Shown: one piece after another, positions 12,018-40,227 of the stretch
Numbering within the stretch: position 1 is the first letter of the stretch
Layout: the number at the start of each line of letters is the position of its first letter
Assembly: GCA_902767015.1 (NCBI GenBank)
Contig: CACXFV010000026.1
Location: forward strand, 1 to 41,762
Direction: 5' to 3'
DNA length: 41,762 nucleotides
Origin: an uncultured Lachnospiraceae bacterium
Lineage (GTDB): Bacteria > Bacillota > Clostridia > Lachnospirales > Lachnospiraceae
Notes under the pieces: generated by a model
What the model saw: only the letters and a program-made list of their open reading frames with translations
Databases searched by the model: none
Told to the model about the DNA's origin: nothing
Position numbers and translations under genes: made by a program

Positions 12018-12021
12018 ATGA

Positions 12022-12261
12022 TTGACTGTGAAGATGCGTAAGTAGTATACAGAAAACATTTCAAGAGAATCATGTCATTGGCTGAAAGCATGATAATAAG
12101 CTCTGTATATGAATTTCAACATTGGAGTCTTCCATGAGAATGGATGTAGTTGCTGCATTAAAGCATGTAAGAGCGCAGATATGATAGTCATATCTGAATG
12201 TGGGTGGTACCGCGGGTAGATGATTCGTCCCATGACAGCGTTAGCTGTCATGGGATTTTTT
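12022..12261 (+). promoter_or_regulatory. T-box leader with Phe specifier, upstream of pheST
   Basis: This leader senses uncharged tRNA-Phe and allows readthrough into pheS-pheT when phenylalanyl-tRNA is low. The T-box core AATGTGGGTGGTACCGCGGG is at about 12197-12216. Its TGGT pairs with the tRNA acceptor end, consistent with an A discriminator. TATACAGA (12046-12053) pairs with TCTGTATA (12102-12109) just above the specifier loop. The loop has AGTA on its 5' side and GAATTTC on the 3' side, giving TTC (Phe) as the specifier codon. The competing terminator is listed separately. The class is well established and the identity of the downstream genes agrees with the specifier. Confidence 0.93.
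12229..12261 (+). terminator. T-box regulated terminator
   Basis: Stem CCCATGACAGC / GCTGTCATGGG with loop GTTA-like turn, followed by ATTTTTT. Its left arm overlaps the CGTCCC segment that pairs with the T-box GGG run in the antiterminator form, so the two folds exclude each other. Confidence 0.9.
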
Positions 12262-12334: not shown

Positions 12335-13378
12335 ATGGAAGATTTACATGAATTAAGTGAGAAGGTTTCCGCCATTAAGCAGGAAATCAAATCGGAACTT
12401 GAAAAATTGGAAAGCTCTAAAGGAGTTTATGATTACAAGAAAAGTATCCTTGACAACAAGACGGGAAAAATCGGCTCATTGATGAAGCAGATGGGAAAAG
12501 TACCGAAAGAATTGAAGGCTGATTATGGCAAAAAAGTCAATGAATTAAAAGTATGGGCTCAGAATCATTTTGATGAGCTTGATGCAAAATTCAAGGAGCA
12601 GGAGTTAAGACAGCGCTATGAGCGAGAAAAGATTGATGTGACAATGCCTGCCAAAAAGCATATTCATGGTAATTTACATCCTGTCACGCAGGTGACGAAC
12701 CAGTTGATTGATATTTTTGCTTCCATGGGATTTGAAATCTATGAGGGTTCAGAAATCGAGACGGACTATTATAATTTTACCGCACTCAATACACCACAGG
12801 ATCACCCGGCAAGAGATATGCAGGATACATTTTACCTTTCGCCGGAATTTTTACTTCGCACACAGACGTCAGCAGGACAGATTCATGTTATGGAGGAGAA
12901 GAAACCGCCTATCAAGATTATATCACCGGGTAAGGTATTCCGCTCTGATGATGATGCCACGCATTCACCGATGTTTACACAGATGGAGGGGCTGGTGGTT
13001 GATAGAGGAATTACACTGGGAGATTTAAAGGGAATGCTAGACGAGATTGTAAGGAAGATATTTGGAGAGGGAACCACGACAAGATTGCGCCCATCGTATT
13101 TTCCGTTTACAGAGCCGTCAGTGGAGGTCGATGTCAGTTGTTTCCAGTGTGGAGGCTGTGGATGCAATCTCTGTAAGGGGACAGGCTGGATTGAGGTATT
13201 GGGAGCAGGTGTCGTCAATAACAAAGTATTAGAGGGCTGTGGTATTGACACGGAACAATACAGTGGTTTTGCCTTTGGCGTGGGATTGGAACGTATTGCG
13301 ATGCTGAAATACGGTTTTAATAATATCAAATTATTGTTTGAATCAGACTTAAGAGTCCTTAACCAGATTGATGACTGA
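12335..13378 (+). CDS. pheS: Phenylalanyl-tRNA synthetase alpha subunit
   Basis: This is the catalytic subunit of the alpha2-beta2 PheRS, which charges tRNA-Phe in the cytoplasm. At 347 residues it is full length. Residues 1-90 are the N-terminal coiled coil that grips tRNA. The class II core begins near 105 ([21 protein letters not shown]), has motif 2 around [24 protein letters not shown], the cysteine-containing [26 protein letters not shown] region, and motif 3 [17 protein letters not shown]. The start has AAAGGAGAG upstream. pheT follows after about 55 bases in the same transcription unit under T-box control. The extra Cys cluster (CxxCGCxxC-like) is a feature seen in many PheS proteins. 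Confidence 0.97.
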
Positions 13379-22121: not shown

Positions 22122-23063
22122 ATGGAAAATAATGCAAAAAAAAATATTCATGTTAATATAGAAAGAAATAATAGAGAAAATCATAATATAGAAAAAATTT
22201 ATTTAATAATTTTAAAAAAATATAGCATTATCACGGTGGCAGCAGTGGGATATGGAATGGGGATTGCAGTCTTTCTGGACAGCAATAATCTGGTTCCGGG
22301 AGGCATCAGCGGTTTGTCAATTATTGTAAGCCGATTGACAGAAATCCGAACCGGCTCTGTCTTTTTTCTGTTAAATATTCCGATTTTAGCGCTGGGAATG
22401 TGGAAATTTGGGTTAAAGTTTATATTTGATTCGCTATATGCCATATCTGTCTCAAGTGTTACTGTTAATCTGTCAAGGAGTCTGCCGGTCATCACGGAGG
22501 ACATTTTAATAGCAGCGTTGGCGGGTGGCGCTGCAGTTTCTGTCTGTATCGGACTGATTTTCAGACAGGGAGCCACTACAGGAGGGATGGATATCATTGT
22601 GCTTCTCCTCAAACAAAGATATAAGCATTTAAAGACAGGAACAATCTTTTTGATGGCAGATAGTTTTATTGTCATGTTGTCGGCATTTGTATTTGAAAAT
22701 GTTGATTATGCTTTCTATTCTGCCATAACTGTTGTTACATCCTCGATGGTGCTGGATATGGTATTATATGGAAGAGATGAAGCAAGACTGATGTATATTA
22801 TTCTCCGTGAGGAGCATTATGAAAAATTGATTGCTGAAAGATTGCTAAATGAGCTTGAAGTGGGCGTAACTTATCTAAAAGGATATGGAGGCTATCAAAA
22901 TACCGATAAAAAGGTGATATTGTGTGCGGTTCACAAAAATCAGCTTCCAAAAGCAAAAGAGATTGTCAGAGATACGGATGACAATGCGTTTCTTATTGTG
23001 ACCTCTGCCAATGAAATCATGGGTGAGGGGTATAAGAGTCATTATTCATCATTTTCCGGTTGA
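22122..23063 (+). CDS. YitT family membrane protein (DUF161/DUF2179)
   Basis: A 313-residue integral membrane protein. After a polar Asn-rich N-terminus (1-30) come about five hydrophobic spans (about 35-215) with the family phrases DSNNLVPGGISGLSIIVS, FFLLNIPILALGMWKFGLKF and RQGATTGGMDIIVLLL. The C-terminal soluble domain (about 220-313) is the DUF2179 part, with EVGVTYLKGYGGYQNTDKKVILCAV and DDNAFLIVTSANEIMGEGY. The function is unproven; transport or signalling is suggested for relatives. The N-terminal 30 residues are unusually Asn/Lys-rich and AT-rich in coding. The gene stops three bases after the start of the -35 box of the glnA promoter. Confidence 0.9.
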   Translation: MENNAKKNIHVNIERNNRENHNIEKIYLIILKKYSIITVAAVGYGMGIAVFLDSNNLVPGGISGLSIIVSRLTEIRTGSVFFLLNIPILALGMWKFGLKFIFDSLYAISVSSVTVNLSRSLPVITEDILIAALAGGAAVSVCIGLIFRQGATTGGMDIIVLLLKQRYKHLKTGTIFLMADSFIVMLSAFVFENVDYAFYSAITVVTSSMVLDMVLYGRDEARLMYIILREEHYEKLIAERLLNELEVGVTYLKGYGGYQNTDKKVILCAVHKNQLPKAKEIVRDTDDNAFLIVTSANEIMGEGYKSHYSSFSG

Positions 23064-23088
23064 CAAAGCTTCGGATTATTGATATCCT
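23060..23088 (+). promoter_or_regulatory. Promoter for glnA
   Basis: TTGACA (23060-23065) overlaps the yitT-family stop, followed by 17 bases and TATCCT (23083-23088). Transcription would start near 23095, only about five bases before the hairpin at 23100. The same layout occurs before aspS. Confidence 0.6.
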
Positions 23089-23099
23089 TTTAGTGAAAC

Positions 23100-23133
23100 A
23101 AAGGCGTTTTTCCAAGGGGGAAGAGCGCCTTTT
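23100..23133 (+). terminator. Terminator-like hairpin in the glnA leader (possible attenuator)
   Basis: A continuous 14-pair stem AAAGGCGTTTTTCC / GGAAGAGCGCCTTT (including G-U pairs), loop AAGGG, ending in TTTT. It may terminate yitT transcription, but it also lies at the 5' end of the predicted glnA RNA. Its outer sequence (ACAAAGGCGTT and GAGCGCCTTTT) recurs in the aspS leader. Confidence 0.75.
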
Positions 23134-23202
23134 AGCATGAGCTTTGAAAGCTTACCGTAGCCCATGGCGACAGGTATTTTTATAATAGCAGGAGGATGCA
23201 AT

Positions 23203-24531
23203 ATGAAGTATACAAAACAGGAAATTCTTGAAATGATTGACGAGGAGGATGTTGAATTTATCAGAATGCAGTTTACCGATATATCCGGCAGTATGAAAAA
23301 TGTGGCAATTACTTCCAGTCAGCTAAAAAAGGCACTGGATAATCAATGTATGTTTGATGGCTCTGCCATTGATGGCTTCACTAGAATTGAAGAATCAGAT
23401 ATGTATTTATACCCGGATTTGTCAACCTTTACGATATTTCCGTGGCGGCCGCAGCAGGGGAAGGTGGCAAGATTTATCTGTGACATTTACAGACCGGACG
23501 GAACCCCCTTTGAGGGAGATCCAAGGTATGTGCTGAAAAAAGTGGTAAAGGAGGCAGAGGCATTAGGATATACTTTTCATGTGGGACCGGAGTGTGAGTT
23601 TTTTTTGTTTCACACAGATGACTATGGCAATCCGACTACCGTTACACATGAAAAGGGAGGGTATTTTGATTTAGGACCTATTGACATGGGCGAGAACGCA
23701 AGACGTGACATGGTTCTCAATCTGGAGTCTATGGGATTTGAGATACTTGCTTCACATCATGAGGCGGCACCGGCACAGCAGGAGATTGATTTTAAGTATG
23801 ATGATGCTCTTGCCACGGCAGATAATATCATGACCTTTAAACTGACGATTAAATCTATTGCCAAGAGACACGGACTTCATGCAACATTTATGCCTAAACC
23901 AAAATCAGGAATTAATGGTTCGGGCATGCATATCAATATGTCATTACAAAAGGAGGGGAGAAACGTTTTTTGGGATGAGAAGGATAAGAATGGTCTCAGC
24001 AAAGAGGCATATAGCTTTATGGCGGGAATTATGAAGCATATCAAGGGAATGACCATCATTACGAATCCGCTTGTGAATTCCTATAAGCGGCTGGTTCCGG
24101 GATATGATGCGCCTGTCTACATTGCATGGTCTGCTTCCAGCAAGAGTCCTCTGATAAGGATTCCGTCACCGCGAGGCGAAAGTACGAAGATAGAACTGCG
24201 TTGTCCGGATCCGGCAGCCAATCCTTATCTTGTGCTTGCGTTGTGTCTGGCGGCCGGTCTTGATGGAATTAAGAATCAGCTCACACCGCCTCCGAGTGTA
24301 GACAGAAATATATTTGAAATGACAAATGAGGAAAGAAAAGCAGCAGGCATTGAAAATCTTCCGGAAAACCTTTGTGATGCCATAGAGAAATTTGAGGAGG
24401 ATGAGTTTTTGAAGAATGTTTTAGGAGAACATATAGCAAAAAATTTTATTAATGCGAAAAAACGTGAATGGCAGGATTACCGTACACAGGTGACAAATTG
24501 GGAGTTGGAGCAGTATCTTAATAAATATTAA
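23203..24531 (+). CDS. glnA: Glutamine synthetase, type I
   Basis: This dodecameric cytoplasmic enzyme makes glutamine from glutamate, ammonia and ATP. At 442 residues it matches the GSI-alpha form of Firmicutes rather than the longer adenylylated beta form. Motifs: [23 protein letters not shown] with the conserved [45 protein letters not shown] and [25 protein letters not shown] lies seven bases before ATG 23203; an in-frame ATG at 23164 is poorer. A promoter and hairpin precede it by about 70-140 bases, and an ANTAR antiterminator gene follows 32 bases after the stop. Its product feeds GatCAB and PurF encoded later in the window. Confidence 0.97.
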
Positions 24532-24563: not shown

Positions 24564-25109
24564 TTGATTGACATAATAGTAGTGTTTCCAAAACAGGAGG
24601 ATGCAAATGCCATAAAAAACCTATTAATGAGAAATGGATATAATGTAGCTTCTGTGTGCACTTCCGGTGCGCAGGTTATGTCTGTGATAGATGAGATGGA
24701 TTATGGAATCGTTGTATGCGGATATAAATTTAATGATATGTTGTACTCGGAATTATACGAGTATCTGCCGGATACTTTTCAGATGCTTCTCATTGCATCA
24801 AGAGCCAAAATGGAGGTCGGTATCAGTGACGGCGTAGTGAGTGTAGAAATGCCACTGAAGGCTTATGACCTTCTGGATACCTTGGAAATGATGTCACAGG
24901 CTTTGCAGCGTATTAAGAAAAAGGGAAGAAACAAGCCGAAGGAAAGAAATGTCGCACAAAAAGCCATTATCGATGAGGCGAAGCAGCTTTTGATGAAGAA
25001 TAGGAACATGACGGAGGAGGAGGCGCATCGCTATATTCAGAAAAACAGTATGGACAGTGGTACGAATATGGTGGAGACTGCAAGAATGGTGTTACAGATT
25101 ATGCATTAG
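24564..25109 (+). CDS. ANTAR-domain antiterminator with receiver-like N-terminus
   Basis: The protein has 181 residues. The N-terminal part (1-115) folds like a receiver (IDIIVVFPKQEDANAIKNLL, GIVVCGYKF) but the phospho-acceptor region reads VVCGYKF, without the usual Asp, so it is a pseudo-receiver. The C-terminal 55 residues are an ANTAR RNA-binding domain, QKAIIDEAKQLLMKNRNMTEEEAHRYIQKNS with the conserved Ala and aromatic positions. ANTAR proteins prevent transcription termination by binding paired stem-loops in leaders. TTG 24564 is the start, with a near-perfect GGAGGTGAT before it. Placement directly after glnA recalls the NitR-type nitrogen antiterminators described beside glnA in clostridia. 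Control of glnA is inference. Confidence 0.9.
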   Translation: MIDIIVVFPKQEDANAIKNLLMRNGYNVASVCTSGAQVMSVIDEMDYGIVVCGYKFNDMLYSELYEYLPDTFQMLLIASRAKMEVGISDGVVSVEMPLKAYDLLDTLEMMSQALQRIKKKGRNKPKERNVAQKAIIDEAKQLLMKNRNMTEEEAHRYIQKNSMDSGTNMVETARMVLQIMH

Positions 25110-29689: not shown

Positions 29690-29718
29690 TTGACAATTAA
29701 ATTGATTTATTGTAATAT
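29690..29718 (+). promoter_or_regulatory. Strong promoter for aspS-gatCAB
   Basis: TTGACA (29690-29695), 17 bases, TAATAT (29713-29718). Start of transcription near 29725, four bases before the hairpin at 29729. Confidence 0.8.
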
Positions 29719-29728
29719 ATGCGTGAAC

Positions 29729-29768
29729 AAAGGTGTTCTGATTCAATTGAATCAGAGCGCCTTTTTTT
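29729..29768 (+). terminator. Terminator-like hairpin at the 5' end of the aspS leader
   Basis: A continuous 16-pair stem AAAGGTGTTCTGATTC / GAATCAGAGCGCCTTT with loop AATT, then T to 29768 (seven T in total). It is a full intrinsic terminator by shape but lies immediately after a strong promoter. It could end the upstream membrane-protein transcript, attenuate aspS, or both. Confidence 0.85.
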
Positions 29769-29812: not shown

Positions 29813-31564
29813 ATGGAAAAAAAGAGTGTTTATCGCGATTTTACGCTGGATAAGATTAGTGAAGATATGACAGGGGAGGAGGTCTGTGTGGCAGGCTGGG
29901 TAGAAAATATCAGAGACCACGGTGGTGTATCTTTTCTTGACTTAAGAGATATGTATGGTGTGATACAGGTTGTGCTTAGGGATACAACCCTTTTAGAGGG
30001 CATAGTGAAGGAGGAATGTATCAGCGTCCGAGGATTGGTGGAGAAGCGTGATGAGGAAACCTACAATCCGAAAATAGCGTCAGGAACGATTGAGGTGGAG
30101 GCACATGAGATTGATATACTGGGTAGGGTTTACAGAACACTTCCTTTTGAAATACAGAGTTCTAAGGAGATAAGAGAGGATTTAAGACTGAAATACAGGT
30201 ATCTGGATTTGAGAAACAGGAAAGTAAAGAATAATATTATTTTTCGTTCTAACGTGATATCTTTTTTGAGAAAAGTGATGGAGGAGATGGGATTTATAGA
30301 AATACAGACGCCAATCCTCTGCGCTTCATCACCGGAGGGAGCCAGAGATTATATCGTTCCTTCCAGAAGATATAAAGGCAGTTTTTATGCACTTCCGCAG
30401 GCACCACAGCAATATAAGCAGTTGCTGATGGCGTCAGGCTTTGACAGATATTTTCAGATAGCACCATGTTTTCGGGATGAGGATGCCAGAGCTGACAGGT
30501 CACCGGGAGAATTTTATCAGCTGGATTTGGAGATGAGCTTTGCCACACAGGAGGATGTGTTTGAAGTAGGAGAGAAGGTTCTCACAGCAGTTTTTGAAAA
30601 ATTTGCACCGAGTGGCTATACAGTGACAAAAGCACCTTTTCCGGTAATCAGTTATCAACAGGCAATGCTGGAATTTGGAACAGATAAGCCGGATTTAAGA
30701 AATCCGTTGCGAATAATAGATGTGACAGAGTTTTTTCAAAGATGTACATTTAAGCCATTTCATGGTAAAACAGTAAGGGCAATTAAAGTACATGCAGAAA
30801 TGTCAAAAGGATTTCATGAAAGGCTGCTCTCATTTGCCACCTCCATGGGAATGGCGGGACTGGGTTATCTTGAAGTGATGGAAGATATGTCGTACAAAGG
30901 ACCGATTGATAAATTTATTCCTGAGGACATGAAAAATGAATTGAGAGACTATGCACAGCTTAAAACAGGTGATACAATATTCTTTATAGCTGATAAGGAG
31001 AGCAGGGCAAATTATTATGCAGGAAATATACGAAATGAGTTAGGGGAAAAACTTCATCTTACGAATCAAATGTCTTATGATTTTTGTTATGTCAATGATT
31101 TTCCGATGTTTGAATATGATGAGGAGGAAAAGAAGATTGGATTTACGCATAATCCTTTTTCAATGCCGCAGGGGGGGCTTGAGGCGCTTAACACAAAGAA
31201 TCCGCTTGACATACTTGCCTATCAGTATGATATTGTATGTAATGGTGTGGAATTATCCTCAGGAGCAGTAAGAAACCATGATATGAAGATAATGGAAAGG
31301 GCGTTTGAAATTGCGGGATATGCAAAGGAGGAGCTTGAACAGAAGTTCGGTGCGCTTTATCAGGCATTTCAATACGGTGCGCCGCCACATGCGGGGATGG
31401 CGCCGGGAATCGACAGAATTCTCATGCTTTTGCGGAATGAGGAAAATATTAGAGAAGTCATTGCTTTTCCGATGAATGCAAATGCACAGGATCTGATGTG
31501 CGGCGCACCGGGAAGAGTGACAGAGCAGCAGCTCAGAGAGGTACATATCAAAGTTAGGACGTAG
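29813..31564 (+). CDS. aspS: Aspartyl-tRNA synthetase, probably non-discriminating
   Basis: A bacterial-type AspRS of 583 residues in the cytoplasm. The order is an N-terminal OB anticodon domain (about 15-110, VCVAGWVENIRDHGGVSFLDLRD), a class II core with YRYLDLRNRKV, TPILCASSPEGARDYIVPSR, QAPQQYKQLLM and motif 2 around IAPCFRDEDARADRSPGEF, a GAD insertion (about 285-405, with DTIFFIADKE) and motif 3 GMAPGIDRILMLLRNEENIREVIAFP. The adjacent gatC, gatA and gatB genes strongly suggest that it also charges tRNA-Asn with Asp for later amidation. That is inference from context; I cannot read specificity from the sequence alone. AAGGAATGGTAGT precedes the start. Confidence 0.95.
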   Translation: MEKKSVYRDFTLDKISEDMTGEEVCVAGWVENIRDHGGVSFLDLRDMYGVIQVVLRDTTLLEGIVKEECISVRGLVEKRDEETYNPKIASGTIEVEAHEIDILGRVYRTLPFEIQSSKEIREDLRLKYRYLDLRNRKVKNNIIFRSNVISFLRKVMEEMGFIEIQTPILCASSPEGARDYIVPSRRYKGSFYALPQAPQQYKQLLMASGFDRYFQIAPCFRDEDARADRSPGEFYQLDLEMSFATQEDVFEVGEKVLTAVFEKFAPSGYTVTKAPFPVISYQQAMLEFGTDKPDLRNPLRIIDVTEFFQRCTFKPFHGKTVRAIKVHAEMSKGFHERLLSFATSMGMAGLGYLEVMEDMSYKGPIDKFIPEDMKNELRDYAQLKTGDTIFFIADKESRANYYAGNIRNELGEKLHLTNQMSYDFCYVNDFPMFEYDEEEKKIGFTHNPFSMPQGGLEALNTKNPLDILAYQYDIVCNGVELSSGAVRNHDMKIMERAFEIAGYAKEELEQKFGALYQAFQYGAPPHAGMAPGIDRILMLLRNEENIREVIAFPMNANAQDLMCGAPGRVTEQQLREVHIKVRT

Positions 31565-31701: not shown

Positions 31702-31995
31702 ATGGCAAAGGTAATATCGGATGAGACGATTGAATATGTCGGAATCCTTGCAAAGCTTGAACTGCAAGAGGAGGAGAAGGAGCAGGCAAAAAAAGATATG
31801 GCAGTGATGCTTGATTATATTGATAAGATGAAAGAACTGGATACGGAGGGAATAGAACCTATGAGTCACATCTTTTCTGTGAATAATGTTTTCAGGGAGG
31901 ATATTGTGACGAATGGCGATGACAGAGAAAATATCCTTGCCAATGCACCTTTGAAGAAAAATGGTATGTTTAATGTACCCAAGACATTTGAGTGA
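31702..31995 (+). CDS. gatC: Aspartyl/glutamyl-tRNA amidotransferase subunit C
   Basis: The small structural subunit of the GatCAB complex has 97 residues. Family signs: [23 protein letters not shown] near the start, a helix ending [19 protein letters not shown], then [15 protein letters not shown] and the closing [18 protein letters not shown]-like end. It wraps around GatA and stabilises the complex, which amidates Asp-tRNA-Asn (and often Glu-tRNA-Gln). GAAAGGAAGGCAGGTT precedes ATG 31702. gatA follows after 26 bases. The 137-base gap to aspS is larger than the other spacings of this cluster. Confidence 0.95.
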
Positions 31996-32021
31996 CGAAG
32001 AGCAGGAGGTGATTTTTCAAA

Positions 32022-33512
32022 ATGGATATCTTGGATTTTACAGCCGTGGGGCTGGCAGATGAGATAAAAAAAGGAGAAGTGTCGGCACAGGAGGCTGTTG
32101 AGGCGGTTTTTTCGCGGATAGACAACTGTGAAGATGAACTGAACTGTTATATTTCTTTTGACAGGATGGAGGCAGTGAAGAGGGCGCAACAGGTGCAGAA
32201 AGCGATAGAGGCGGGAGAGATACATTCGTCACTTGCCGGTGTTCCTGTTGCTATCAAAGATAATATCTGCACGAAGGGAATGAAAACTACATGTGCATCG
32301 AAAATATTGCAGAATTTTGTTCCTACGTATTCAGCACATGCGGTAAAGTGTCTGGAGGAAGCGGGGGCTGTTATTATCGGAAAAACCAATATGGATGAAT
32401 TTGCCATGGGTTCTACCACGGAGACATCCTTTACCGGTCCGACAAAAAATCCGTGGAATACGGCGTGTGTGCCGGGAGGCTCCTCCGGTGGTTCGGCAGC
32501 GGCAGTGGCAGCAGGGGAGTGTTATTATGCACTTGGTTCTGATACAGGCGGCTCTATCAGGCAGCCGGCCGGCTATTGCGGCATCGTTGGAATGAAGCCG
32601 ACCTATTCGACTGTGTCCAGGTATGGTCTGATTGCGTACGGTTCCTCCCTTGACCAGATAGGTCCGCTTTGCAAGGATGTGACAGATTGTGCTAACATTT
32701 TAGAGGTAATTACTTCATATGATGAAAAAGATTCAACATCTGCCAGACGGAAGGATGCATCATTCACAGAGGCACTTGTGGATGATGTAAAAGGAATGCG
32801 GATAGGAATACCAAAAGAGTATTTTGGAAAAGGACTGGAGCCGGAGATAAGTGCAGCTGTATTAAAGGCTGCTGCACTTTTAGAAGAAAAGGGAGCTATC
32901 ATAGAGGAATTTAATCTGACATTGACAGATTATGCCATACCGGCCTACTATACCATTGCGTCAGCAGAAGCGAGCTCTAATCTAGAGAGATTCGATGGTA
33001 TCAAGTATGGATATAGGACAGAGGTGTATGAAGGTCTCCACAATATGTATAAGAAAACACGCTCGGAGGGATTCGGCGGGGAGGTAAAGCGAAGAATCAT
33101 GTTAGGCTCCTTTGTGCTGAGTTCAGGCTATTATGATGCATATTATCTGAAAGCACTGCGAGTGAAGGCATTGATTAAACAGGAATTTGATAAGGCATTT
33201 TCAAAATATGATGTGATATTAGGTCCTGTAGCGCCGCAGACAGCACCAAAGCTGGGTGAAAGCCTTACAGAGCCTTTGAAAATGTATTTAGGTGATATCT
33301 ATACGATATCAGCCAATCTTACCGGAATACCGGGAATCAGTGTTCCTTGCGGAATTGACAGTAAAGGTCTGCCGATTGGCTTACAGCTTTTGGGAGATTG
33401 CTTTAGAGAAAAGAATATTATTAGAACCGCTTATGCGTATGAGCAGGCAAGGGGAAAGTTTGCCGGTCCTGATGTAAGCGGCTGTGAACACAGCTTATAT
33501 GAGGTTGAATAG
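32022..33512 (+). CDS. gatA: Aspartyl/glutamyl-tRNA amidotransferase subunit A
   Basis: The glutaminase subunit belongs to the amidase-signature family and frees ammonia from glutamine for GatB. At 496 residues it is full length. The Ser-cisSer-Lys triad is visible: K79 in VAIKDNI, S154 in PGGSSGGSAA, and nucleophile S178 in GSDTGGSIRQPA. Later family stretches include FDGIKYGYR, SEGFGGEVKRRIMLGSFVLS and NLTGIPGISVPCG. The unit aspS-gatC-gatA-gatB is compact, with gatB starting 15 bases after this stop. Unlike two other amidotransferase-related genes in the window, its own active site is intact. Confidence 0.97.
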   Translation: MDILDFTAVGLADEIKKGEVSAQEAVEAVFSRIDNCEDELNCYISFDRMEAVKRAQQVQKAIEAGEIHSSLAGVPVAIKDNICTKGMKTTCASKILQNFVPTYSAHAVKCLEEAGAVIIGKTNMDEFAMGSTTETSFTGPTKNPWNTACVPGGSSGGSAAAVAAGECYYALGSDTGGSIRQPAGYCGIVGMKPTYSTVSRYGLIAYGSSLDQIGPLCKDVTDCANILEVITSYDEKDSTSARRKDASFTEALVDDVKGMRIGIPKEYFGKGLEPEISAAVLKAAALLEEKGAIIEEFNLTLTDYAIPAYYTIASAEASSNLERFDGIKYGYRTEVYEGLHNMYKKTRSEGFGGEVKRRIMLGSFVLSSGYYDAYYLKALRVKALIKQEFDKAFSKYDVILGPVAPQTAPKLGESLTEPLKMYLGDIYTISANLTGIPGISVPCGIDSKGLPIGLQLLGDCFREKNIIRTAYAYEQARGKFAGPDVSGCEHSLYEVE

Positions 33513-33527
33513 ACAGGGAGGCACAGT

Positions 33528-34961
33528 ATGGCAAAAGAATATGATACAGTAATCGGACTAGAAGTTCATGTGGAATTGGATACAAAAACAAAAATTTTTT
33601 GTGGCTGTTCCACCGCATTTGGTGCAGAACCGAATACACATACCTGTCCTGTCTGCACAGGAATGCCGGGAAGTCTTCCGGTGCTCAATAAACAGGTGGT
33701 GGAGTATGCGATTTCCGTTGGATTGGCAACGAATTGCCGGATTACAGGATTTAGTAAATTTGACAGAAAGAACTATTTTTATCCGGATAATCCGCAGAAT
33801 TACCAGATATCTCAGTTGTATCTTCCTATCTGTACCAATGGTTTTGTAGAAATCACAGGTGAAGATGGCAATAACAAAAAAATCGGCATTCATGAAATTC
33901 ACATGGAGGAGGATGCAGGGAAGCTTATCCATGATGAATGGGAGGATTGCTCCTATGTGGATTACAACCGCTCCGGAGTGCCGTTGATAGAAATTGTATC
34001 GGAGCCGGATATGCGTTCTGCTGACGAGGTAATTGCGTATCTGACAAAGCTTAGAATGATTATTCAATATCTGGGGGCTTCGGATTGTAAGCTGAATGAG
34101 GGTTCAATGCGAGCTGATGTCAATTTATCCGTAAGGGAAGCAGGGAGTGAGACTTTCGGAACCAGAACGGAGATGAAGAACCTTAATTCTTTTAAGGCGA
34201 TTAGAAGAGCCATTGAAAATGAGAGAGAAAGACAGATTGATATCATTGAAGCAGGTGAAAAGGTAATACAAGAGACAAGAAGGTGGGATGATAACAAAGA
34301 GTATTCCTACCCTATGCGCTCTAAAGAGGACGCAAAGGATTACAGATATTTTCCGGAACCGGATCTGCCTCCGGTTGTGGTTAGTGAGCAGTGGATTGAG
34401 GAAATCAGAAGCAGGCAGCCGGAGTTTCGTGATGAAAAAATGGCAAGATATATTCGTGAATTTGACATACCGGAGTATGATGCAGATATTATTACCTCTT
34501 CCAAAAAGATGGCAGATATATTTGAGGCAACTGTCGGGGAAGGAGCGAATCCTAAAAAGGTCAGCAATTATCTGATGGGAGAGACCATGAGACTGCTAAA
34601 AATCCTTGAGAAGGAGCCGGAGGATATACATTTTTCGCCTGAGAATCTGGCACGTCTGATAAAACTGACAGATGACCAGGTGATTAACAGCAGCGTGGCA
34701 AAAGAGGTATTCGAAAAGATGTTTGAGGAGGATGTTAATCCGGAGGAATACGTGGAGATTCATGGACTGAAGCAGAATAATGATGTGGAGGGTCTGAAGG
34801 AAATTATCAAGCAGGTTATTACAGAGAATCCTAAGTCTGTGGAGGATTATCACAGTGGAAAGGAGAAAGCTCTGGGATTCCTGGTAGGTCAGACCATGAA
34901 GGCGACAAGGGGAAAGGCAAATCCTGAAATGATTCACCTGCTGTTAAAAGAGTTATTGTAA
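33528..34961 (+). CDS. gatB: Aspartyl/glutamyl-tRNA amidotransferase subunit B
   Basis: This subunit phosphorylates and amidates the misacylated tRNA. At 477 residues it is full length. Diagnostic segments: VIGLEVHVELDTKTKIFCGC near the start, PVCTGMPGSLPVLN, KFDRKNYFYPDNPQNYQISQ, GIHEIHMEEDAGKL and SGVPLIEIVSEPD. The C-terminal YqeY-like helical tail (about 400-477, VEDYHSGKEKALGFLVGQTM) binds tRNA. The metal-binding Cys pairs CGCS and CPVC are present. AGGGAGG precedes ATG 33528. It is the last gene of the unit, followed by a hairpin that overlaps the stop codon. Confidence 0.97.
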   Translation: MAKEYDTVIGLEVHVELDTKTKIFCGCSTAFGAEPNTHTCPVCTGMPGSLPVLNKQVVEYAISVGLATNCRITGFSKFDRKNYFYPDNPQNYQISQLYLPICTNGFVEITGEDGNNKKIGIHEIHMEEDAGKLIHDEWEDCSYVDYNRSGVPLIEIVSEPDMRSADEVIAYLTKLRMIIQYLGASDCKLNEGSMRADVNLSVREAGSETFGTRTEMKNLNSFKAIRRAIENERERQIDIIEAGEKVIQETRRWDDNKEYSYPMRSKEDAKDYRYFPEPDLPPVVVSEQWIEEIRSRQPEFRDEKMARYIREFDIPEYDADIITSSKKMADIFEATVGEGANPKKVSNYLMGETMRLLKILEKEPEDIHFSPENLARLIKLTDDQVINSSVAKEVFEKMFEEDVNPEEYVEIHGLKQNNDVEGLKEIIKQVITENPKSVEDYHSGKEKALGFLVGQTMKATRGKANPEMIHLLLKELL

Positions 34962-35699: not shown

Positions 35700-35746
35700 T
35701 CATAGTGCATTGTTATTGTTATTTTCATCAGAATAGGAGAATTGAT

Positions 35747-37207
35747 ATGCCGGAATATAATGGTAGCTTTGAAAAAAACAGGAAATTTAACAATGTGGAG
35801 GATACACTTCATGAAGAATGTGGTGTATTTGGAATGTATGATTTTGAGGGTGGTGATGTGGCAGCCTCCATCTACTACGGATTGTTTGCATTACAGCACA
35901 GAGGTCAGGAAAGCTGCGGAATTGCTGTGAGTGACACGGAGGGACCAAAGGGAAGTGTTATGGTTCACAAAGACATGGGGCTTGTGAATGAGGTGTTTTC
36001 AAAGGAAAATCTGTCAAAACTGCATGGGAATATCGGAGTGGGACATGTGAGATATTCAACGGCAGGTGCCAGTACCAGAGAAAATGCGCAACCTCTTGTA
36101 TTAAACTACGTCAAGGGAATTTTAGGTCTTGCCCATAATGGGAATCTGATTAATGCCGGTGAGTTGAGACATGAGTTGGAATATACCGGCGCGATTTTCC
36201 AGACGACCATTGATTCTGAGGTAATAGCCTACCTGATTGCCAGAGCAAGAATTAAGACAGCTACGGTTGAGGAGGCTGTAAAAATAACGATTTCCAAGAT
36301 AAAAGGTGCCTATTCGCTGATAGTTATGAGTCCGAGAAAGCTCATCGGTGCGAGAGATCCTTTTGGATTTAAGCCATTATGCATAGGTAAGAGAGATAAT
36401 GCCTATATTTTTGCGTCCGAGACATGCGCTTTGGATACCATTGGTGCGGAATTTGTAAGAGATGTGCTTCCGGGAGAGATAGTAACCATCACGGATGGAA
36501 AGGTGATATCGGATACATCTATGTGTATACCGAAGGAAAAAGAAGCGAGATGTATATTTGAGTATATTTATTTCGCGAGACCGGATAGCAGGATAGATGG
36601 CATTTCCGTATATCAGTCAAGGATTATGGCAGGAAGGTATCTTGCCATAGACACACCTGTTCCGGCAGATGTAGTGGTGGGTGTTCCTGAATCGGGAAAT
36701 GTCGCAGCATTGGGATATTCCTTACAGTCGGGTATTCCTTACGGAACGGCATTCATTAAGAATGGATATGTGGGAAGAACCTTTATAAAACCGAAGCAGA
36801 GCAGCAGAGAATCGAGTGTCAGGATTAAGCTAAATGTGCTGAAGGAAGTAGTGAGGGGAAAAAGAGTCATCATGGTAGATGATTCTATTGTCAGGGGTAC
36901 AACCAGTGACCGTATTGTCGGAATGTTAAAGGAGGCAGGTGCCACGGAGGTTCATGTAAGAATCAGTTCACCGCCGTTTATCAGTGAGTGTTTTTTTGGC
37001 ACAGATGTGCCGTCGAAGGAGCAGCTGATTGCTTATGGAAGGTCGGTTGATGAAATCAGAAAACTGATAGGAGCAGATTCACTGGGATATTTAAAGCTTG
37101 AGAGACTACAGCAGATGGTGGACGGGCTTCCTATTTGTACAGGCTGTTTTATGGGAGAGTATCCATTAGAGCCTCCCGAGAGTGACATAAGGGGAGAACA
37201 TGAATGA
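35747..37207 (+). CDS. purF: Amidophosphoribosyltransferase (glutamine PRPP amidotransferase)
   Basis: The first committed enzyme of purine synthesis makes phosphoribosylamine from PRPP and glutamine. It has 486 residues from ATG 35747 (AGGAGA upstream). C25 in HEECGVFG would become the N-terminal nucleophile after cleavage of a 24-residue leader. The glutaminase domain is complete: HRGQESCG, GHVRYSTAGAS, LAHNGNLIN. The phosphoribosyltransferase domain has VIMVDDSIVRGTT. Four Cys fit the iron-sulphur ligands of the Bacillus-type enzyme: one in ARCIFEYI, one in ISECFFG and two in CTGCF near the end. purB follows. It is the active counterpart of the Cys-less paralogue at 38818. Confidence 0.96.
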   Translation: MPEYNGSFEKNRKFNNVEDTLHEECGVFGMYDFEGGDVAASIYYGLFALQHRGQESCGIAVSDTEGPKGSVMVHKDMGLVNEVFSKENLSKLHGNIGVGHVRYSTAGASTRENAQPLVLNYVKGILGLAHNGNLINAGELRHELEYTGAIFQTTIDSEVIAYLIARARIKTATVEEAVKITISKIKGAYSLIVMSPRKLIGARDPFGFKPLCIGKRDNAYIFASETCALDTIGAEFVRDVLPGEIVTITDGKVISDTSMCIPKEKEARCIFEYIYFARPDSRIDGISVYQSRIMAGRYLAIDTPVPADVVVGVPESGNVAALGYSLQSGIPYGTAFIKNGYVGRTFIKPKQSSRESSVRIKLNVLKEVVRGKRVIMVDDSIVRGTTSDRIVGMLKEAGATEVHVRISSPPFISECFFGTDVPSKEQLIAYGRSVDEIRKLIGADSLGYLKLERLQQMVDGLPICTGCFMGEYPLEPPESDIRGEHE

Positions 37208-37250
37208 TAACAACATGATAAAACATAGAAAGGAAAAGGTAATTACAGAT

Positions 37251-38690
37251 ATGTATGACAGATATCAGAGTCCGTTATCGGAAAGATACGCAAGTAAGGA
37301 GATGCAGTATATATTTTCGCCGGATATGAAATTCAAGACATGGAGAAAATTGTGGATTGCCCTGGCTGAGACAGAAAAGGAGTTAGGTCTTGATATTACA
37401 GAAGAACAGATAGCAGAGCTTAAGGAGCATGCAGAAGATATCAATTATGAGGTTGCAAAGGAGAGAGAAAAGCTTGTCAGACATGATGTAATGTCTCATG
37501 TCTATGCGTATGGTGTTCAATGTCCAAAGGCTAAAGGAATCATACATCTTGGTGCAACCTCCTGTTATGTAGGTGATAATACAGATATCATCATTATGAC
37601 AGAGGCACTTAAGCTTGTGAGAAAGAAAATGATTAATGTGATTGCCGGACTGGCAGCGTTTGCGGATAAATACAAGGCACAGCCTACACTGGCTTTTACC
37701 CATTTTCAGCCGGCTCAGCCTACCACTGTGGGAAAGAGGGCAACGCTCTGGCTTAATGAACTGTTAGTCGATCTTGAGGATATAGAGTATGTGATTGGCA
37801 GTATGAAGCTTTTAGGCTCTAAGGGAACTACGGGAACACAGGCAAGTTTTCTTGAGCTGTTCGAGGGAGATCATGAAAAGATCAGAAAGATTGATCCGAT
37901 GATAGCCCAAAAGATGGGCTTTGAAAAATGTCAGCCTGTTTCAGGACAGACTTATACAAGAAAGGTAGATACCAAGGTATTGAATGTGTTGGCGGGAATT
38001 GCAGCCAGTGCCCATAAGTTTTCAAATGATATAAGATTACTGCAGCATTTAAAGGAGGTAGAGGAGCCGTTTGAAAAGAATCAGATAGGTTCGTCTGCCA
38101 TGGCTTATAAGAGAAATCCGATGAGAAGTGAAAGGATTGCTTCTTTGGCAAATTATGTTATGGTAGATGCGCTGAATCCTGCCATAACATCGGCAACACA
38201 GTGGTTTGAGAGAACGCTGGATGATTCTGCCAACAAGAGGATCAGTATACCGGAAGGCTTTTTAGCGGTAGACGGCATTCTTGATTTATATCTGAATATT
38301 GTGGATGGTCTGGTAGTATATCCGAAGGTAATTGAGAAAAGGCTGATGTCAGAACTGCCATTTATGGCAACGGAAAATATTATGATGGATGCTGTTAAAG
38401 CAGGCGGTGACAGGCAGGAGCTTCATGAAGAAATCAGAAAGTTGTCAATGGAGGCCGGTTACAAAGTGAAGTTTGAGGGTCTTGACAATAATCTTTTAGA
38501 ACTGATTGCAAATGACGAGAAGTTTAAGCAGTATAATATTTCACTAGAGCACTTAAAAGAGGCAATGGAGCCTGCAAAGTATGTGGGACGCTCAAAAGAG
38601 CAGGTGGAGGAATTTTTAGAGGAAGTGGTCAATCCGATTCTTGAGAAGAATAAGGATATTCTTGGAATGACTGCGGAGATTAATGTATAA
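37251..38690 (+). CDS. purB: Adenylosuccinate lyase
   Basis: This fumarase-superfamily enzyme acts twice in purine synthesis, on SAICAR and adenylosuccinate, releasing fumarate. From ATG 37251 it has 479 residues and begins MYDRYQSPLSERYASKEMQ, the usual PurB start. Family motifs: HDVMSHVYAYG, HLGATSCYVGDNTD, LGSKGTTGTQASF, QTYTRKVDTKV, and the signature IGSSAMAYKRNPMRSERIA with the flexible catalytic Ser loop. An upstream ATG at 37200 overlaps purF by eight bases and has GGGGAG close before it; translation from there would add 17 residues that I judge not conserved. The two starts cannot be separated by sequence alone. It forms a unit with purF. Confidence 0.95.
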   Translation: MYDRYQSPLSERYASKEMQYIFSPDMKFKTWRKLWIALAETEKELGLDITEEQIAELKEHAEDINYEVAKEREKLVRHDVMSHVYAYGVQCPKAKGIIHLGATSCYVGDNTDIIIMTEALKLVRKKMINVIAGLAAFADKYKAQPTLAFTHFQPAQPTTVGKRATLWLNELLVDLEDIEYVIGSMKLLGSKGTTGTQASFLELFEGDHEKIRKIDPMIAQKMGFEKCQPVSGQTYTRKVDTKVLNVLAGIAASAHKFSNDIRLLQHLKEVEEPFEKNQIGSSAMAYKRNPMRSERIASLANYVMVDALNPAITSATQWFERTLDDSANKRISIPEGFLAVDGILDLYLNIVDGLVVYPKVIEKRLMSELPFMATENIMMDAVKAGGDRQELHEEIRKLSMEAGYKVKFEGLDNNLLELIANDEKFKQYNISLEHLKEAMEPAKYVGRSKEQVEEFLEEVVNPILEKNKDILGMTAEINV

Positions 38691-38715
38691 TTACAGGCAT
38701 ATCAATATAAGACAG

Positions 38716-38780
38716 GCTGAAAGAAATATAGGAAAGAAAGGACAAGCGGCTGCCCATTCTTTCAGCAATTGACCGGGCAG
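38716..38780 (+). promoter_or_regulatory. Alternative-pairing region between purB and the PurF paralogue
   Basis: GCTGAAAGAA (38716-38725) is the exact complement of TTCTTTCAGC (38757-38766). Inside that loop CTGCCC (38750-38755) complements GGGCAG (38775-38780) outside it, so the two pairings exclude each other or make a pseudoknot. No T-run is present. It may be chance. Confidence 0.3.
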
Positions 38781-38817
38781 TATTGCGGAGATTTCTGCGA
38801 TATGCATAAGGACGAAA

Positions 38818-40227
38818 ATGGGAGGATTTTTTGGAGTAGCATCTAAGAGTGATTGTGTATTTGATTTGTTTTTCGGTACAGATTATCACTCACATTTAGG
38901 AACCAGAAGAGCAGGGATGGTAGTATATGGAAAGGATGGTTTTGATCGGGCCATCCATAATATAGAGAATGCACCTTTCAGAACAAAATTTGAAAAGGAA
39001 GTCAATGATATGAAGGGCAACCTTGGAATAGGCTGTATCTCGGATTATGAGCCACAACCCCTGATTGTCAGGTCACATCATGGAACTTTTGCTATTACAA
39101 CAGTAGGACGTATCAATAATGTAGATGAGATTGTAGACAATATATTTACGACGGGTAATACGCATTTTCTGGAGATGAGCGGAGGTGACATTAATGCGAC
39201 AGAGCTTGTGGCTGCCATCATTAACCAGAAGGAGAATATCATTGAAGGAATCAAGTATGCACAGGAGTTAATCGAGGGTTCCATGACAATGCTTGTCATG
39301 ACACCGAAAGGCATCTTTGCGGCACGTGACAGATTGGGACGTACACCGGTAATTATCGGGAAAAAAGAAGATGGATACTGCGTTACTTTTGAGTCGTTTG
39401 CTTACCTGAATCTCGGGTATCAGGATGAAAGAGAACTGGGACCGGGAGAAATTGTGATTATGACACCAGAGGAGGTAAGAACGGTATCGGTGGCAGGAAA
39501 GGATATGAAAATCTGTACATTCCTGTGGATTTATTATGGATATCCTTCTTCTTCTTATGAAGGTGTGAGTGTGGAGCAGATGCGCTACAAATGCGGTGCT
39601 ATGCTTGCAAGGAGGGATAATGTAAAGCCGGACATTGTTGCCGGTGTACCGGATTCGGGAACAGCACATGCTGTGGGATATGCCAATGAATCAGGAATCC
39701 CGTTTTCCAGACCATTTATTAAATATACACCGACATGGCCGCGTTCGTTTATGCCGACAATCCAGAGTAAGAGAAATCTGATTGCAAAAATGAAATTGAT
39801 TCCGGTGCATGACCTTATCAAAGGCAGAAGCTTGCTTCTGATTGATGATTCCATCGTCAGAGGCACACAACTTCGTGAAACCACTGAATTTCTATATCAA
39901 AGCGGGGCGAAGGAGGTTCACATCAGACCGGCATGTCCGCCATTGGTATACGGTTGTAAGTTTGTCAATTTTTCCAGGTCATCATCAGAGATGGATTTGA
40001 TTACAAGGCGTGTGATAAAGGACATAGAAGGAGAGGCAGAGCCGGCAAAAGAGATACTCAACGAGTATACGAATCCGGAGTCAGAACGGTATGAACGAAT
40101 GATAGAGCAAATCAGAAAGCAACTGAATTTCACATCACTAAGATACCACAGACTGGATGATATGATGGATTCCGTCGGAATCGATAAGAGTAAGCTGTGT
40201 ACTTATTGCTGGGATGGAAGAGAATAA
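38818..40227 (+). CDS. PurF paralogue without glutaminase nucleophile
   Basis: A 469-residue relative of amidophosphoribosyltransferase. It begins MGGFFGVASKSD where active enzymes have MCGIFG, so the nucleophilic Cys is Gly2. The rest of the glutaminase site is also changed: no RYST (it reads NLGIGCISDYEPQPL) and no HNGNL (VGRINN). The phosphoribosyltransferase half is kept: GVPDSGTAHAVGYA and PRPP loop LIDDSIVRGT (341-350). Cys at KICTFLW, YGCKF and CTYC match the positions of the iron-sulphur ligands. It probably binds PRPP and could use free ammonia or regulate PurF; both are inference. AAGGA lies six bases before ATG 38818. It follows purB after 127 bases. Confidence 0.9.
   Translation: MGGFFGVASKSDCVFDLFFGTDYHSHLGTRRAGMVVYGKDGFDRAIHNIENAPFRTKFEKEVNDMKGNLGIGCISDYEPQPLIVRSHHGTFAITTVGRINNVDEIVDNIFTTGNTHFLEMSGGDINATELVAAIINQKENIIEGIKYAQELIEGSMTMLVMTPKGIFAARDRLGRTPVIIGKKEDGYCVTFESFAYLNLGYQDERELGPGEIVIMTPEEVRTVSVAGKDMKICTFLWIYYGYPSSSYEGVSVEQMRYKCGAMLARRDNVKPDIVAGVPDSGTAHAVGYANESGIPFSRPFIKYTPTWPRSFMPTIQSKRNLIAKMKLIPVHDLIKGRSLLLIDDSIVRGTQLRETTEFLYQSGAKEVHIRPACPPLVYGCKFVNFSRSSSEMDLITRRVIKDIEGEAEPAKEILNEYTNPESERYERMIEQIRKQLNFTSLRYHRLDDMMDSVGIDKSKLCTYCWDGRE

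Follow-up and report, generated by a model that had tools for sequence, protein, structure and literature searches.

The leaders of glnA and aspS in a 41,762-nucleotide stretch of DNA (the window) from an uncultured member of the Lachnospiraceae, a major gut family, are most likely ANTAR-type antitermination switches that have been reduced to one hexaloop, placed where the transcript begins, and that serve a nitrogen regulon. The leaders, and the genes that they precede in the window, are as follows.

23060..23088, plus strand: glnA promoter, with TTGACA (23060-23065), a 17-base spacer and the extended -10 element TGA-TATCCT (23083-23088)
23095..23110, plus strand: glnA hexaloop hairpin (putative antiterminator), GAAAC[AAAGGC]GUUUU, loop at 23100-23105
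23100..23133, plus strand: glnA intrinsic terminator, 14 pairs (23100-23113 with 23119-23132) and a short U run
23203..24531, plus strand: glnA, glutamine synthetase of 442 aa (Pfam Gln-synt_C, 2e-134)
24564..25109, plus strand: ANTAR protein of 181 aa, the proposed antiterminator (Pfam ANTAR, PF03861, 6.3e-16)
29690..29718, plus strand: aspS promoter, with TTGACA (29690-29695), 17 bases and TAATAT (29713-29718)
29725..29738, plus strand: aspS hexaloop hairpin (putative antiterminator), GAAC[AAAGGU]GUUC, loop at 29729-29734
29729..29768, plus strand: aspS intrinsic terminator, 16 pairs and then a U run
29813..31564, plus strand: aspS, aspartyl-tRNA synthetase (Pfam tRNA-synt_2 and GAD)
31702-31995, plus strand: gatC (Pfam GatC)
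32022-33512, plus strand: gatA (Pfam Amidase)
33528-34961, plus strand: gatB (Pfam GatB_N and GatB_Yqey)

In the glnA leader, the -10 box is followed by GTGAAACAAAGGCGTT and then by the 14-pair hairpin (23100-23132), which ends in GAGCGCCTTTT. In the aspS leader, GTGAACAAAGGTGTT lies between the -10 box and the 16-pair hairpin (29729-29764), and GAGCGCCTTTTTTT comes after it. The preliminary description of this DNA had seen the same order in both leaders, a promoter and then a hairpin-terminator at about +1, and this is borne out by the coordinates and by the folding z-scores (-4.06 for the glnA hairpin and -6.16 for the aspS hairpin, with 0 of 200 shuffles equally stable for each). The distance from TTGACA to AAAGG, recomputed, is again 40 bases for glnA and 39 for aspS, and the spacing between promoter and hairpin is similar at related glnA loci. 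From the -10 spacing, transcription is predicted to start near 23095 (glnA) and 29725 (aspS). The recurrence of GAGCGCCTTTT is by itself weak evidence: allowing up to one mismatch it occurs twice in the window, exactly both times, vs 0.42 occurrences expected, and 7 of 100 shuffles also reach two. The genes downstream had been tied to glutamine or amide nitrogen, and Pfam identifies them as glnA and as aspS followed by gatC, gatA and gatB. The last three (31702..34961) encode the glutamine-dependent tRNA amidotransferase; they lie behind aspS on the same strand and we assume that they are co-transcribed with it. Downstream of gatB, at 35705-40227, two purF-like glutamine amidotransferase/phosphoribosyltransferase open reading frames flank adenylosuccinate lyase.

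Two features go beyond the preliminary description: an alternative fold with a six-base loop in both leaders, and an ANTAR gene directly after glnA. The targets of ANTAR proteins carry a hexaloop that overlaps the foot of a terminator, with A and G as its first and fourth bases and C-G and A-U as its closing pairs (Ramesh et al., PMC3369931; this and the other papers cited here by PMC number were available in part). These features can be read directly in the glnA and aspS leaders, where the loops are AAAGGC and AAAGGU, the closing pairs are C-G and A-U, and the hexaloop overlaps the 5' arm of the terminator. Hairpin and terminator use common bases, so that the two folds are mutually exclusive. 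The hexaloop hairpin of glnA has a folding energy of -0.9 kcal/mol (median over leaders -2.7, for the first 16 nt) and its terminator one of -20.4 kcal/mol (median -20.7). With a hairpin this weak set against a terminator this strong, termination by default with protein-stabilised readthrough is the natural reading. The leader looks more like an ANTAR antiterminator worked by a protein than like a self-contained switch.

The element is conserved at related glnA loci. With a promoter and a T run within 300 nt as the sole criteria, 46 of the 80 loci compared qualified, and 40 of these 46 carried a hexaloop (A or G, A, any base, G) at most 32 nt from the -10 box; when 13 of the 46 stretches were shuffled by mononucleotide, the background was about 5%. 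The remaining 34 loci failed this filter, yet three of them (L010, L022 and L074) still carry the element. At eight loci (L032, L040, L062, L064, L068, L069, L072 and L077) no leader was found despite an ANTAR gene after glnA; on reading, these eight have a hisA/hisF-like gene directly upstream of glnA. Upstream of glnA in L013 there is a variant leader, AUGC[AAAGAG]GCGU, whose closing stem differs and which was excluded from the alignment. A first filter for promoter, hexaloop and terminator passed 45 of the 80 loci, of which five were dropped as false or ambiguous; the 40 glnA leaders retained and the two window leaders, minus one duplicate, gave an alignment of 41 rows. These rows had been preselected for a stem of at least three pairs and a terminator of at least six, so that the counts lean towards both structures: the hexaloop stem was paired in 95.6% of cells (43-62% when slid) with two-sided changes in 15 cells, neither figure being matched in any of 500 shuffles, and the terminator was 90.7% paired with two-sided changes in 42 cells (0 of 500 shuffles as high). 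The number of hexaloop pairs with a two-sided change (3) and the number of further pair types (6) were no higher than in the shuffles of the 41 rows.

A covariance model, R1, was built on the 41 rows with the terminator pairs only; its E-values are rough, the calibration having been short. In the genome of the window, the strongest matches were the training rows glnA (E 1.8e-9) and aspS (E 8.2e-9). Three matches lay outside the training set: one before an ATP-grasp operon (C134:9522-9563, minus strand, locus L095; E 6.4e-8), one at glnN, a type III glutamine synthetase (E 8.2e-6), and one at amt (L097:1239-2975, contig C28; E 0.0076), which encodes an ammonium transporter fused to a P-II domain. 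The amt element, with the loop GAAGGU and a 3-pair stem, is the weakest member in this genome. The operon behind the C134 match encodes circularly permuted ATP-grasp, Alpha-E and transglutaminase-like proteins, and the ATP-grasp gene is preceded by the element in six other genomes of the family. A reading of C134:9529 as an unrelated two-way terminator was dropped; the minus strand reads GGAC[AAAGGC]GUUC before the ATP-grasp gene. A weak match in the same genome at C119:51087 (E 0.14) was not counted as a member, nor were the R1 matches antisense to the glnA element (E 1.11), at C26:16142 (E 2.75) and at C133:10526 (E 8.76).

Across the family Lachnospiraceae, R1 found matches at E<=0.01 in 95 of 120 genomes. 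Outside the window's own genome, 119 matches reached E<=1e-4, and their downstream genes were assigned by BLAST against the proteins of the window's genome, by clustering and by Pfam on one representative of some clusters. The first gene downstream was glnN in 41 cases, glnA in 27, amt in 9, the ATP-grasp gene in 6, a PPDK_N-domain protein in 5 and an ABC ATPase in 4 (of amino-acid type by reading); gltB, asnB, purF and a glutamate-synthase-type amidotransferase followed with 3 each, a luxR type with 2, and pyrG, gdhA, ocd, dapF and an aminotransferase (dapL by reading) with 1 each, while six matches preceded other genes and two had no open reading frame behind them. Genes of ammonium or glutamine metabolism (glnN, glnA, amt, ABC, gltB, asnB, purF, amidotransferase, pyrG and gdhA) thus stand behind 95 of the 119 matches; those at glnA are partly circular, since R1 was trained on glnA-locus leaders, and without this gene the count is 68 of 92. 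Enrichment of the motif before nitrogen genes in relatives had been set beforehand as one test of a shared RNA attenuator for nitrogen supply, and with matches across the family mostly preceding glutamine and ammonium genes that proposal is supported. Among the nine genomes of the genus, the leader is present at glnA in eight, at glnN in seven and at aspS in five; G315 (89% complete) is the only one of the nine with no R1 match. G316 has an element (C28:7676, L292) roughly 350 nt upstream of a divergent class II tRNA synthetase of the D/K/N type, which hints at a functional and not a positional link to aspS. The PPDK_N proteins (PEP/pyruvate dikinase ATP-binding), 541-561 aa as read, come from five genomes (L159, L164, L205, L222 and L225); in L159 the domain is preceded by about 290 residues without a Pfam match.

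Pairing of the hexaloop stem holds in this wider set. The 119 matches and the five of the window's own genome give 122 distinct leaders once two repeats are merged, and in these the stem is 90.5% paired, compared with 37-56% when slid, and two-sided changes number 61, where 500 shuffles average 20.6 and reach 34 at most; in the 94 non-glnA rows the figure is 89.4% paired. R1 scores the 5' side of this stem by sequence alone and not by pairing. Loop position 4 is G in all 124 leaders, position 2 is A in 123, and position 1 is A in 109 and G in 15, counts that are not unbiased because the model favours conserved loop bases.

The proposed antiterminator is encoded beside glnA. An ANTAR homologue lies directly downstream of glnA on the same strand in 76 of the 80 loci, its open frame (stop to stop) starting from -100 to +112 relative to the glnA end; the contigs of the other four stop no more than 90 bases from glnA. 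Every locus that reaches far enough thus has ANTAR after glnA, so the association between element and ANTAR was compared between genomes, with tests that shared ancestry inflates. In the family, the element was present in 91 of 105 ANTAR genomes vs 4 of 15 without ANTAR (E<=0.01; Fisher 3e-6), so that 91 of the 95 element-bearing genomes encode ANTAR, and at E<=1e-4 the figures were 73 of 105 vs 1 of 15. In the class, they were 57 of 100 vs 13 of 96 (1e-10), and at E<=1e-4 ANTAR was encoded in 35 of 37 element genomes, the exceptions being G235 and G279. No R1 match was found in 14 of the 105 family ANTAR genomes and 43 of the 100 in the class.

The window ANTAR protein is the single ANTAR match in its genome (96.7% complete), and its domain scores 58.3 bits against the curated cut-off of 27.3 for PF03861. 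It consists of a receiver-like N-terminal part, a long helix and the ANTAR domain. With the predicted structure (mean pLDDT 87.4, pTM 0.63), Foldseek gave EutV and Rv1626 as the top matches and AmiR as the sixth. Where strand 3 of the receiver ends, the window protein has Gly in place of the phospho-acceptor Asp; by eye, Gly, Asn or Ala replaces this Asp in 35 of 36 aligned proteins, and only the divergent L045 keeps Asp. With no phospho-acceptor in its receiver part, the protein probably takes its signal from a bound partner, as AmiR does, and this is likelier than phosphorylation. That partner may possibly be glutamine synthetase itself, a speculation prompted by the constant glnA neighbour. 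By our own reading of the alignment, in which the chain numbering is shifted by two, the EutV RNA-contact residues Glu160, Lys149 and Met172 are kept in the window protein, and Asn173, Tyr164, Arg175 and Arg177 are replaced by Asp, His, Gly and Asn; the last three replacements speak against the proposed binding. In EutV, Tyr164 stacks on loop G4, and the contact is with G4 and not with A1 (PMC8934654); the invariant G4 and the variable position 1 of the leaders fit this.

Canonical ANTAR targets have two hexaloops, P1 and P2 (PMC3369931), and the alternative that retains most weight, although we judge it unlikely, is that these are ordinary two-hexaloop leaders whose true start lies upstream of the one implied by the TTGACA promoter and whose degenerate first hexaloop was missed. 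The EutV work requires two: deletion of the first hairpin (P1) abolished induction (PMC3369931), and, according to Walshe et al. 2022 (PMC8934654), termination is prevented only if the EutV dimer makes contact with one hexaloop and then with the other. In addition, the best promoter lies more than 12 nt away in 32 of 124 leaders and none was found by the criteria used in 34 (22 of these at glnN), and in several glnN leaders the likely -10 box and the hairpin are tens of nucleotides apart, and some of these leaders could form a small hairpin in between. Against this, a sigma-70-like promoter ends at most 12 nt from the stem in 58 of 124 leaders, including 24 of 28 at glnA, which leaves no room for P1. 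In the 60-nt stretches upstream, A1/G4 hexaloops with a stem of at least four pairs were at chance (10 of 124 vs a shuffled mean of 9.7; C-G closed, 1 vs 0.6). An exact dual-hexaloop pattern, which fixes the closing pairs so that some dual targets would not fit it, gave 69 matches in 120 genomes vs 154 for the reversed control and none in the window's own genome. The one dual candidate pursued, in G003, was rejected, having no terminator after it and surroundings that read as coding. A second hexaloop inside the terminator was seen in 13 of 124 leaders (shuffled mean 4.2, the shuffles destroying the terminator stem), none of them C-G closed; downstream there were 15 (shuffled mean 10.6, maximum 16), of which 3 were C-G closed (1.1 shuffled, maximum 3). 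The leaders thus lack the two tandem hairpins with a short linker that define the dual target and keep the other ANTAR-target features; they would act in the manner of such a target, and we do not claim membership of the canonical class for them.

It is quite improbable that the leader works free of protein, as a riboswitch or attenuator sensing glutamine, ammonium or another ligand. The set of nitrogen genes and the conserved loop bases would suit such a sensor, but the element is short (about 45 nt) and sets a single weak hairpin of 16 nt against the strong terminator, and it goes with the genomes that encode ANTAR. Neither leader had a gathering-level match to the Rfam covariance models, and a permissive scan of 23040-23210 gave five matches, all far under gathering scores. 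At gathering level the window has a single match, a T-box leader at 12019-12235, before pheS (12335-13378). Still less credible is a DNA operator at +1, in which a repressor or activator would read the GAAC-N6-GTTC inverted repeat: the dyad overlaps the predicted start at a near-fixed promoter distance in many members, but its arms vary jointly (GAAC/GTTC, AAAC/GTTT, AAGC/GCTT), unlike a fixed operator, and the terminator behind it is conserved with covariation of its own. Plain terminators of upstream genes, alike by chance, can be dismissed almost entirely: terminators are common and the -35 box of glnA overlaps the end of an upstream yitT-like open reading frame (22122-23063), but the promoter precedes the hairpin, homologous elements stand before glnA, glnN and amt in many genomes, and aspS keeps its element in relatives within the genus.

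An antitermination switch with one hexaloop would operate as follows. RNA polymerase would start at the predicted sites, and the first 14-16 nt would fold into the weak hairpin with its six-base loop. If this hairpin is left unheld, its loop and 3' arm would become the 5' arm of the terminator, and the message would be cut short at about 40 nt. Under a shortage of nitrogen or glutamine, the ANTAR protein would hold the hexaloop and block the terminator, allowing readthrough into glnA-ANTAR, aspS-gatCAB, glnN, amt and the ATP-grasp operon. The circuit would be self-reinforcing, since the ANTAR gene is itself downstream of the glnA leader. We also lean, with rather less assurance, towards a broader reading: a Lachnospiraceae-wide class, with further matches in the class Clostridia, that has a single hexaloop at the mRNA 5' end without the recruitment hairpin thought essential, and that controls a general nitrogen regulon (glnA, glnN, amt, gltB, asnB, purF, amino-acid uptake and aspS-gatCAB) through a pseudo-receiver ANTAR protein beside, and perhaps gated by, glutamine synthetase. 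This would name a candidate nitrogen regulator and its regulon for the Lachnospiraceae, and would tie glutamine-dependent tRNA charging (aspS-gatCAB) to nitrogen assimilation.

Among known systems, EutV is the top Foldseek match of the window ANTAR protein, and nitrogen genes are involved in both systems. AmiR of AmiR-AmiC is, like the window protein, an ANTAR protein with a pseudo-receiver, and in the accounts available in part it is run by a bound partner and not by phosphorylation. NasS-NasT is grouped with AmiR-AmiC as a system in which the ANTAR protein is controlled by a bound partner. Unlike in these two systems, the constant neighbour of the window ANTAR type is glnA. Among the literature matches listed, none dealt with a glnA leader from Lachnospiraceae or with a natural single-hexaloop terminator. 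Another related system is nitR, a putative antiterminator which, as here, is tied to clostridial glutamine synthetase and GOGAT genes; one cluster of this type, in C. thermocellum, includes an ANTAR gene (PMC4676874); the available part of that account describes an antisense RNA and names no hexaloop leader, whereas here an RNA target and a gene set are defined. Catalogues of ANTAR targets (PMC3369931, PMC3369936, PMC8164766) contain, as here, nitrogen regulons with terminator-overlapping hexaloops, and glutamine synthesis genes are named among the matches in the first two. As far as their available text goes, they define the target as two stem-loops, so that single-hexaloop leaders would be excluded or partly seen, and some loci may overlap with the present set.

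The eut leaders of Enterococcus faecalis, controlled by EutV/EutVW, share the A1/G4 hexaloop, the closing pairs and the overlap with the terminator 5' arm (PMC3369931, PMC8934654). They differ in that eut targets need both P1 and P2, whereas the search here turned up only a P2-like hexaloop, located where the transcript is predicted to begin, and in that EutV is a phosphorylated receiver protein, whereas the window protein lacks the Asp. With no first hairpin in these leaders, the two-hexaloop model of EutV does not carry over unchanged. One hexaloop is the smallest ANTAR binding site in the revised definition of Walshe et al., who left open the degree to which a single one can act and expect single hexaloops where the time limit set by a moving polymerase is absent (PMC8934654). 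With a hairpin at +1, an ANTAR protein would have only a few nucleotides between the emergence of the hairpin and the completion of the terminator, which constrains the mechanism. These leaders offer a large natural set for testing single-hexaloop action in the moving-polymerase setting, where that work expects two.
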